This document shows, in pieces, positions 4,545 to 8,612 of a stretch of 64,000 nt of DNA. The stretch covers positions 186,001 to 250,000 of the forward strand of contig JADZCT010000020.1 in NCBI GenBank assembly GCA_020851455.1, in the 5' to 3' direction. The DNA is from Gemmatimonadaceae bacterium. GTDB lineage: Bacteria; Gemmatimonadota; Gemmatimonadetes; Gemmatimonadales; Gemmatimonadaceae. The notes beneath the pieces were generated by a model. That model ran no database searches, was not told where the DNA came from, and was given only the letters and a program-made list of their open reading frames with translations. The position numbers were made by a program, and so were the translations under genes. Each line of letters opens with the position of its first letter. Position 1 is the first letter of the stretch.

Positions 4545-4573
4545 TTGACTTATCCACATACCGCACGTACGTT
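4545..4573 (+). promoter_or_regulatory. Putative dnaA promoter with internal DnaA box
   Basis: TTGACT (4545-4550), a 17-nt spacer and TACGTT (4568-4573) form a sigma-70-like promoter about 30 nt upstream of the dnaA ATG. A perfect consensus DnaA box TTATCCACA occupies 4550-4558, overlapping the end of the -35 element and the spacer. DnaA bound there would occlude RNA polymerase, the usual arrangement for dnaA autorepression. The box is directly visible; the promoter and its regulation are inferred. Confidence 0.6.
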
Positions 4574-6036: not shown

Positions 6037-6160
6037 GGCTCCACGGCAATCCTCGCACCTTCACCAGTAGTTCTACATTCCACAACAGCCGAAAAGTCGT
6101 TGCAGGCACATCAGTTGCATTGCTTTTCAACTTTCCACGCCTTACTACTTCTACTTCTTT
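6037..6160 (+). other. Candidate replication-origin unwinding element in the dnaA-dnaN gap
   Basis: The 260-nt dnaA-dnaN spacer is pyrimidine-rich and codes for nothing recognisable. It holds three same-orientation TCCAC cores: GGCTCCACG (6037-6045), CATTCCACA (6076-6084) and CTTTCCACG (6131-6139). Each is a degenerate DnaA box. Two bases after the last core comes TTACTACTTCTACTTCTT (6142-6159). Read on the other strand as triplets, this is six successive DnaA-trio-type repeats (3'-[G/A]A[T/A]-5'). The order box, short GC step, trios matches the basal unwinding system described for other bacteria. No perfect DnaA box lies in this gap, so the call is tentative. Confidence 0.45.
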
Positions 6161-6255
6161 TGCGCTACCTATCCTTTTGCTAGTACATAGTCCGATTGTT
6201 CATCGCAGCATCCGGTCGCCTTCTGGAACCCAATCAAGCACAAGGAAGTGACGCT

Positions 6256-7374
6256 ATGCGCTTCACCATCTCGCGGGAGAAGCTGCAGGAAGGCCTGAAC
6301 GCAGTGGCCGGCACTGTCCCGCCGAAGACGACGCTTCCAGTCCTGGCGAACATCCTCATTCAGACCAGCGACAAGGGTATCCGCCTCTCCGGCACGGACC
6401 TCGACGTATCGGTGAGTACCGAAATAGCAGCTGACGTTGAGAGCGCAGGCGGGATCACTATCCCGGCAAAGAAGCTGTCCGATATCGCACGTGAGCTGCC
6501 GGCTGCTCCAGTGAAGATCGCATCATCGGGCGATCAGCGAATCACGCTCGAGTGTGGCCGTTCGCGATTCAAGCTCCTTGGTCTTCCGAAGAGCGAGTTC
6601 CCAGGGTTTCCTGCGGTTCCATTCGAGAAGGCAACGCGAATTCCATCGGGCGAGCTGCAGAAGCTTATTGCGCACACTGCCTTTGCGGCGTCAACGGAGG
6701 AGAGCCGTCCCACGCTGAACGGAGTACTGTGGGAGCTTCAAGGCAGTGAGATGAGAATGGTGGCAACCAACGGACACCGCCTGGCGAAGATGGAACTCTC
6801 TGCTGCATCCGGCATTGCGGGAAAGGCGCAGGAAAGCTTCATCATTCCCCCCAAGGCGCTCGACCACATTCGGCGGCTCTTTCCGGCAGAAGAAGAGCTT
6901 GAGGTGGCCCACGGCGACAACCACGTTGGCTTCCGGTCTCCGTTTACCGCCGTGTACACACGCTTGATAGAAGGTCCGTATCCAGCTTATGACCAGGTGA
7001 TTCCCAAGGATAACGACAAGGTGGCAATCATAGACCGTCACGCCCTTGCTGGCGCGCTCAAGCGGATGTCTGTGGTTGCCTCCGACCAAACGCACAGGAT
7101 CCGCCTGGCATTCAACAGCGCGATGCTGAAGTTCAGCGTGAGTACACCGGACCTCGGTGAAGCGCAGGACGAGCTCCCGGTTCGGTACACAGGTGACCCG
7201 CTCGATATTGGCTTCAATGCAGCGTACCTGCTCGAGATACTTCGCTACATGCCCACCGATGAGATCCGCATGACATTCAAGGCGCCGGAACGGGCAGCAA
7301 CAATCGAACCGGAAGGTTGGGCTGACACGGCGAAATTCATGTGCCTCGTGATGCCGCTGCGACTAGTTGACTAG
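6256..7374 (+). CDS. dnaN: DNA polymerase III sliding clamp (beta subunit)
   Basis: The ring-shaped processivity clamp that tethers replicative polymerase to DNA. It has 372 aa, beginning MRFTISREKLQEGLNAVAGTV, and ends with the typical CLVMPLRLVD tail. The three-domain length matches the family. The start at ATG 6256 is supported by the AAGGAAG ribosome-binding site at 6242-6248; a longer in-frame start at 6196 has no such support. Its TAG stop shares the palindrome CTAG (7371-7374) with the stop of the convergent lipoprotein gene. Confidence 0.97.
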   Translation: MRFTISREKLQEGLNAVAGTVPPKTTLPVLANILIQTSDKGIRLSGTDLDVSVSTEIAADVESAGGITIPAKKLSDIARELPAAPVKIASSGDQRITLECGRSRFKLLGLPKSEFPGFPAVPFEKATRIPSGELQKLIAHTAFAASTEESRPTLNGVLWELQGSEMRMVATNGHRLAKMELSAASGIAGKAQESFIIPPKALDHIRRLFPAEEELEVAHGDNHVGFRSPFTAVYTRLIEGPYPAYDQVIPKDNDKVAIIDRHALAGALKRMSVVASDQTHRIRLAFNSAMLKFSVSTPDLGEAQDELPVRYTGDPLDIGFNAAYLLEILRYMPTDEIRMTFKAPERAATIEPEGWADTAKFMCLVMPLRLVD

Positions 7375-8216
7375 CGCCTGCGTTGCCACAGGCGGACGGT
7401 GGACGCCTGTGCGGCCTGCTCCTGCTGCGTTGCTGAACGAGCCGTGACTTGCAGGTTTGCCGTGCCATATCCGGCCAGCACGTCTCCAGTCTGTGTTGCT
7501 ACCAGGAACGTAAGTGTCGACGTTCCCTGACCCAGCACGAACGTCGTGTCGCCACCCCGGAACACATGAGTGTTGATGGTTACCCGGCTTGTGCGGCGGA
7601 TGGCAACGTGGTCAAGTGGAAGCGAATCAACGCTTCCGGCGTCGGCGTGTCGTGTGACGGTGTAGACGCGACCGACGGCCATCGGAATCTCGATGCCACC
7701 GGCACACGCCACCGTACCGACAGAATCCGTCCACGATGCGCCAACGTACAGCGAGTCCGGCAACGGGATCATCAGGTCGTGAAGTGCGTTGAGCGCGACC
7801 GGCACCGGCGATGGGCAGGACGCGGCAGCGGCAGGCAGCCCGGCGGTGAACGCGGGGAGCAGCCGTAGCGTAGCCGGCGGTGCGGCAACAGCGAACGGGA
7901 ATGAGAGGCCGGTGGGGGCCTGTCCGGCGTTGCCGGTTCTGCCGATGGCTATGGCGCTGATTACCCCAGCGAATCCTCCGGCGGCCGTGCGGCGCAACGA
8001 TGCATCTACGCGGATCGCCGCAGAGTCTCGAATCTCAGCACCGGGCATGCCAATGGTGAGGAGGGCACGATGCTCTATTGTGTAGTCGCGTGCGAGGAGG
8101 TCGCGCGTGGGCTTCCAGCTCGATAGCGGCACGGCCCGCTCCGGGAACGTTACTGCAGGTGAGACTGGCTGGCGCGGCACGGGGGGTGCACAAGCGAGCA
8201 AGAGACCCCATGCCAT
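7371..8216 (-). CDS. Hypothetical lipoprotein-like secreted protein
   Basis: Not assigned to a known family. From ATG 8216 the product is 281 aa and begins MAWGLLLACAPP. The LLLAC sequence is lipobox-like, but the n-region before it is unusually short. The remainder is rich in Ala, Val and Thr and looks like a beta-rich envelope protein. Longer starts on this frame would run through the RNase P RNA gene and are rejected; no in-frame start codon exists between the rnpB 3' end (8237) and 8216. The gene begins 20 nt after rnpB and may be read from its promoter. Its stop overlaps the dnaN stop in CTAG. Confidence 0.6.
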   Translation of the reverse strand: MAWGLLLACAPPVPRQPVSPAVTFPERAVPLSSWKPTRDLLARDYTIEHRALLTIGMPGAEIRDSAAIRVDASLRRTAAGGFAGVISAIAIGRTGNAGQAPTGLSFPFAVAAPPATLRLLPAFTAGLPAAAASCPSPVPVALNALHDLMIPLPDSLYVGASWTDSVGTVACAGGIEIPMAVGRVYTVTRHADAGSVDSLPLDHVAIRRTSRVTINTHVFRGGDTTFVLGQGTSTLTFLVATQTGDVLAGYGTANLQVTARSATQQEQAAQASTVRLWQRRR

Positions 8217-8236
8217 GGCGCACGCGGGCGAGAGTA

Positions 8237-8612
8237 GCGAGATCCCCGGCCTGTAAGCCGGGTTCTGTCGAAGCGTCACGCTTCGTACGGTCATTTCTCT
8301 CGATGTGCGGTCACCCGCACCCTCTAGCGGCCTACCCACGACGTCTTTGTCGAAGTGGACTGCTTCTCGTCGTCTATTCGGCCTTGCTCCGGCTGGGGTT
8401 TGCCGTGCCATCCGTGTTACCACGGATGCGGTGGGCTCTTACCCCACCTTTTCACCCTTGCCCACGCATCGCGGGGCGGTCTGTTCTCTGTGGCACTTTC
8501 CGTCACTTTCGTGCCCAGGAGTTACCTGGCAGCCTGTCCAAGGAGCCCGGACTTTCCTCGGCCACAGTTCGTGTGAACAATGGCCGCGACCGTCCGGCCG
8601 GGGAAATCTCGC
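8237..8612 (-). ncRNA. rnpB: RNase P RNA (bacterial class A type)
   Basis: Catalytic RNA of RNase P, which cleaves tRNA 5' leaders. Its conserved signatures are read on the minus strand. GAGGAAAGTCCGGGCTCC is at 8542-8559 near the 5' end. GGGTAAGAGCCCACCGCATC is around 8420-8441. The 3' signature ACAGAACCCGGCTTACAGG is at 8250-8268. The ends are set by a long P1 helix in which the segment at 8596-8612 pairs with the one at 8237-8251 (GCGAGAT plus CCCCGGCC against GGCCGGGG plus ATCTCGC), giving about 376 nt. The protein subunit gene rnpA is 4 kb away. Confidence 0.95.

Follow-up and report, generated by a model that had tools for sequence, protein, structure and literature searches.

A conserved DnaA box and DnaA-trio element next to dnaA as the probable unwinding core of the Gemmatimonadota replication origin

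In this study, we examined the gap between dnaA and dnaN in a Gemmatimonadaceae genome of 2.96 Mb and compared it with related genomes of the same genus, family and phylum. The tract next to dnaA is, with high confidence, the site at which DnaA opens the chromosome, i.e. the unwinding core of the Gemmatimonadota oriC, and is predicted to work like the basal unwinding system (BUS) of B. subtilis. A sequence-only reading of the same DNA had recognised the order of box, step and trios as such a system, which is supported by its position, uniqueness, conservation, spacing and coincidence with the GC-skew minimum. In the following, the window refers to the whole stretch of 64,000 nucleotides that was analysed (bases 186001–250000 of a 353-kb contig). 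Around the site the genes are ordered rpmH (minus strand), dnaA (plus), a gap of 260 bp and dnaN (plus), with the features collected in Table 1. The encoded DnaA is 59% identical to its closest named relatives, which are Gemmatimonadetes metagenome assemblies. Further along, a class A RNase P RNA lies at window positions 8238–8605 on the minus strand and overlaps the 5' part of an open reading frame (7371–8423, minus strand), the true start of which is probably located further inside the frame.

Table 1. Features of the origin region, in window coordinates
Feature	Position	Strand	Remarks
rpmH		-	first gene in the order around the site, followed by dnaA
Likely dnaA promoter	4545..4573	+	TTGACT (4545-4550), 17-nt spacer, TACGTT (4568-4573)
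Perfect DnaA box TTATCCACA	4550..4558	+	overlaps the dnaA promoter
dnaA, 463 aa	4604..5995	+	Bac_DnaA 6.8e-70, Bac_DnaA_C 7.3e-25
Upstream (distal) degenerate DnaA box TTTTCAACT	6124..6132	+	ends 12 bp before the first CTA; position as in relatives and Firmicutes
Proximal degenerate DnaA box CTTTCCACG	6131..6139	+	TTTCCAC almost unchanged among 16 congeneric species
DnaA-trios TTA CTA CTT CTA CT(T)	6142..6156	+	complementary strand 3'-AAT GAT GAA GAT GA(A)-5'
Sixth triplet CTT	6157..6159	+	specific to the window's genome; congeners carry other bases
Less constrained tract past the trios	6160..6215	.	mean identity 0.62 over 6160-6199 vs 0.94-0.95 in the box-trio block
dnaN, DNA polymerase III beta clamp	6256..7374	+	three Pfam domains, best 1.6e-38

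Three TCCAC cores in one orientation had been named as the lead-in to the triplets, and they are present at 6040–6044, 6079–6083 and 6134–6138, all on the plus strand; the two upstream ones, however, do not belong to the conserved block. A different site, TTTTCAACT, had been overlooked, which lies in tandem with the proximal box and overlaps it by two bases. The distance to the TTA triplet is 2 bp for the proximal box and 9 bp for the upstream one. Both boxes differ from TTATCCACA at three positions each. As had been noticed, the gap contains no perfect DnaA box, and the only one of the window (TTATCCACA, 4550–4558) is found on the far side of dnaA. The tract TTACTACTTCTACTTCTT reads TTA CTA CTT CTA CTT CTT (6142–6159), with TAA, TAG and AAG as the complements of its triplets. 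Its reported distance of two bases from the last core applies to the end of the 9-bp box, whereas three bases separate it from the TCCAC core itself. Six consecutive [CT]T[AT] triplets did not arise in any of 20,000 dinucleotide shuffles of the gap on either strand. A box with at most three mismatches followed by at least four triplets has a single occurrence on both strands of the 353-kb contig, and a TYCMAC core followed by five triplets is found at one place in the whole 2.96-Mb genome (as two overlapping matches), where the reversed pattern, used as control, gave no match.

Conservation of the triplets in close relatives, on which the sequence-only reading had made its proposal depend, is observed in 16 congeneric species of the window's genome and also phylum-wide. 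In the genus alignment of these 16 species, TACTACTnCTACT is invariant save one wobble base: positions 6143–6149 and 6151–6155 are identical at every base, and the sole variable position within 6143–6155 is 6150, the third base of the third triplet, which is T, A or G. Judged from the alignment, this variation is trio wobble, in which the middle base stays fixed. Mean identity to the majority base is 61% over the gap and 94–95% in the best 18-mers, which start at 6131–6141, making the box-trio block the best conserved part of the dnaA–dnaN gap among the 16 species. Of the six triplets originally proposed, five are conserved, while the sixth is not shared by the congeners. On the level of the phylum, a CTA-based trio score, devised for this analysis together with its cut-offs, reached at least 8 in 111 of 129 gaps compared to 5.6% of shuffled gaps, and at least 10 in 96 of 129 compared to 0.6%. 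Since species within one genus are not independent, we also counted by genus and found the tract in 64 of 74 genera. About 14% of the sampled relatives score low for the CTA-type trio form, a point against the assignment. Deviant tracts, which this CTA-based score counts as low, are seen as CTAATAATAATAG in loci L028 and L072 (family f9) and as CTATGATGACGAT or TTATGATGACGAT in L088, L095 and L105 (genus g39 of family f5).

The spacing of the element is retained as well. In the commonest geometry of the phylum, the upstream box ends 12 bp and the second box 4 bp before the first CTA; the 12-bp spacer is the most frequent one (42/102 relatives), and Firmicutes loci compared alongside show the same box-to-trio step. 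With the upstream box of the window also placed 12 bp before the first CTA, the genus can be described as having one more triplet at the front, TTA, and boxes set slightly closer.

A skew minimum located elsewhere had been named as an argument against an origin at this site. The minimum of the cumulative GC skew of the 353-kb contig lies at window position 6402, which is 240 bp away from where the trios end. For a relative of the same family with a complete chromosome (G074), the skew obtained from twenty 20-kb samples is negative between 0.52 and 3.58 Mb, with a single exception at 1.30 Mb, and positive from 3.72 Mb past the zero coordinate to 0.28 Mb, with dnaA at 3.688 Mb inside the interval of the sign change (3.58–3.72 Mb). 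In its oriC location, at the skew minimum and between dnaA and dnaN, the element of the window conforms to a BUS. This coincidence also speaks against the conserved block being a promoter or leader element of dnaN rather than a part of the origin, a reading to which its orientation and its distance of about 115 bp from dnaN would lend themselves. A pattern scan of the gap found neither an intrinsic terminator nor a sigma-70 promoter, the block has no Rfam match, and box, 12-bp step and trios are the same in Firmicutes, leaving a dnaN element as a highly improbable explanation.

The published BUS search pattern demands a box with at most two mismatches, a spacer of at most 16 bp and at least three NAN trios, and, applied to 2070 bacterial species, predicted the system in 85% of them (PMC8287927). 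Where a BUS needs three or more DnaA-trios in a row on a single strand (3'-NAN-5', consensus GAT), the window offers five conserved ones and six in total; a box lies within 16 bp of them, and the trios occupy the strand complementary to the top strand of the box. The box rule itself is missed by one mismatch, as both boxes carry three relative to TTATCCACA, while the congeners G063 and G083 comply with it (CTTTCCACA, 2 mismatches). The rule is a search threshold rather than a demonstrated functional limit, and DnaA binds low-affinity boxes (PMC8287927). It should nevertheless be noted that three mismatches in both boxes render the affinity of DnaA uncertain, which counts against the assignment, and we therefore classify the element as a member of the BUS with this caveat. 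The DnaA protein has the required residues by sequence: its best solved match over the whole length is B. subtilis DnaA (8btg, a chain of the BUS cryo-EM structure; E 5.7e-123), and I195 and R269 align with the ssDNA-binding isoleucine I190 of the ISM and the arginine finger R264.

The BUS of B. subtilis (PMC6669920, PMC10721633) and the element of the window are alike in their tandem boxes in the dnaA–dnaN gap, in the step of about 12 bp between upstream box and trios, in triplets of the CTA type whose trio strand is the complement of the box top strand, and in a DnaA that keeps both the isoleucine and the arginine finger. The complement of the B. subtilis trios, CTACTATTACTTCTACTA (PMC10201434), and the tract of the window have ACTTCTACT in common. 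In contrast to B. subtilis, the boxes of the window are more degenerate and overlap by two bases, the genome is high in GC, and DciA is found in place of DnaD. As in the DnaD recognition element (PMC10201434), TnnT motifs are present on the top strand opposite the trios (6142–6159), but a DnaB_2/DnaD reader (PF07261) is absent from all 21 genomes searched, i.e. the window's and 20 relatives, in a search that was positive for B. subtilis and L. lactis as controls. With DciA present in the window's genome and in 19 of the 20 relatives, helicase loading is probably DciA-based.

We propose a model in which DnaA would bind the tandem degenerate boxes (6124–6139) as double-stranded DNA, from where an AAA+ oligomer would grow onto the complementary strand of the trios (6142–6156), the strand on which DnaA would read them. 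The oligomer would stretch this strand and capture its bases, the duplex would open toward dnaN, and the helicase could then be loaded in the opened region, probably through DciA. The less constrained tract at 6160–6215 is likely the region into which unwinding spreads. As a separate observation on DnaA-like proteins, locus L002 (G000:C76:180997-184482, outside the window) encodes a protein of 806 aa that has two Bac_DnaA AAA+ domains in tandem and lacks the DnaA box-binding domain, and such two-domain Bac_DnaA matches are seen again in many Gemmatimonadota genomes.

A two-part origin had been considered possible in the sequence-only reading, given the perfect box beyond dnaA and the lack of one in the gap; boxes on both sides of dnaA are indeed seen, while the proposal is weakened by the embedding of the perfect box in a conserved dnaA promoter. 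The motif with the perfect box, TTGACTTATCCACA, has its counterpart in relatives, where the region upstream of dnaA again shows G-TTGACTTWTCCACA and, behind it, a TA-box-like hexamer, and the fusion of the box to the putative -35 element is conserved across the family. Our assignment of this promoter follows from conservation, as a strict sigma-70 scan at 4545–4573 called none and the -10 element is weak. A DnaA site within the dnaA promoter is the usual layout of autoregulation, as in E. coli and B. subtilis, and consequently conservation of the box alone is no proof of a two-part origin. In such an origin, which has reportedly been proposed for B. subtilis and Helicobacter pylori, the perfect box and the downstream box-trio unit would act in one looped complex, both being needed. 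This would agree with the weakness of the downstream boxes and with a near-perfect box (at most one mismatch) upstream of dnaA in 87 of 125 genomes; the dnaA strand holds 97 of the 99 boxes of this kind. However, the box upstream of dnaA is tied to TTGAC and to the downstream TA-hexamer, a layout of an autoregulated promoter that explains its conservation by itself. We therefore regard a two-part origin as rather unlikely: the perfect box is probably an autoregulatory site and possibly a second origin half, with autoregulation being the better account.

A classical DNA unwinding element, in which opening would take place mainly in the AT-rich tract past the trios with the trios in a secondary role, could draw on the inverted repeat with genome-specific pairing that lies behind the trios in many genomes of the window's family. 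The tract is, however, variable and far less conserved than the trios, and neither a significant fold nor an inverted repeat was found there in the window's genome, so that we consider this reading improbable compared to opening at the trios.

The tract past the trios shows a further feature in relatives. Trio-like triplets on the opposite strand were found there in 26 of 63 genera (9.9 expected), most strongly in the sister family f2 (11/17, 4.0 expected). A fresh f2 sample gave 28 compared to 11.7 expected, with no simulation above 22, and the 14 f2 genera new to this second sample gave 7 compared to 2.3 (p 0.001), replicating an enrichment of about 2.5-fold. In L063, L033, L266, L065 and other f2 loci, these triplets lie about 12–30 bp past the forward trios (e.g. 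CTACTACTACTACTAGTATTTCTATATAGAGAAGCAGTAGTA), and in the f2 genus g36 a conserved AG-AGTAG arm borders a variable centre. For comparison, 21 origins from outside the phylum, most of them from Firmicutes, gave 3 compared to 1.6 expected. In the window's own family (f1), arms pair better within than between genomes, with none of 5000 permutations reaching the observed value, while an upstream control gave p 0.19. By this comparison the f1 arms are a covarying inverted repeat. Such AT-rich repeats lie just downstream of the trios in L138, L139, L055, L043, L058 and L040 (f1) and in L005 (f4), for example CTGCTGTTA...TAACAGCAG. The window itself has no clear example of opposite-strand trios, and the covarying repeat is absent in its genome; CTAGTACATAG (6180–6190, inside the less constrained tract) is a weak candidate for a remnant of opposite-strand trios, and this genome keeps at most such a remnant.

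Three accounts of these arms were rejected. A hairpin is at odds with a mean fold z of -0.73 over 111 genomes (about 0 in controls; -0.03 for the window), and a complete convergent second BUS with an enrichment that is seen for reverse trios and not for reverse boxes (7/56, expected 5.3). Genome-specific pairing as the sole explanation holds in f1 but fails in f2 (p 0.99), where the arms resemble consensus trios. Loading of the second helicase is listed as unresolved in PMC10721633, and opposite-strand trios in a DciA lineage without DnaD may bear on it. We tentatively suggest, as a possibility we hold to be doubtful, that many Gemmatimonadota origins carry a second, opposite-strand trio set past an AT-rich centre, or a covarying inverted repeat equivalent to it, as a loading site on each strand, allowing the second helicase of bidirectional replication to be loaded independently of DnaD. 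If true, both single strands would be marked for loading. Opposite-strand trios may also have duller origins, as a melting aid or as AT-rich palindromes retained by chance.

Gemmatimonadota do not appear in the main text of PMC8287927, PMC6669920 or PMC10721633, and in the open literature searched, which covers PMC8287927 by its main text, we found no report or earlier description of a Gemmatimonadota oriC with trios. The kind of site is known, and what this analysis adds is its conservation across a whole little-studied phylum, to which a box-trio element is here extended base by base. The element further implies that a box rule of two mismatches misses real-looking elements. With its fixed spacing between box and trios, an invariant middle base and wobble at the third base of a triplet, the Gemmatimonadota origin provides an evolutionary test of the register in which DnaA would engage the trios.
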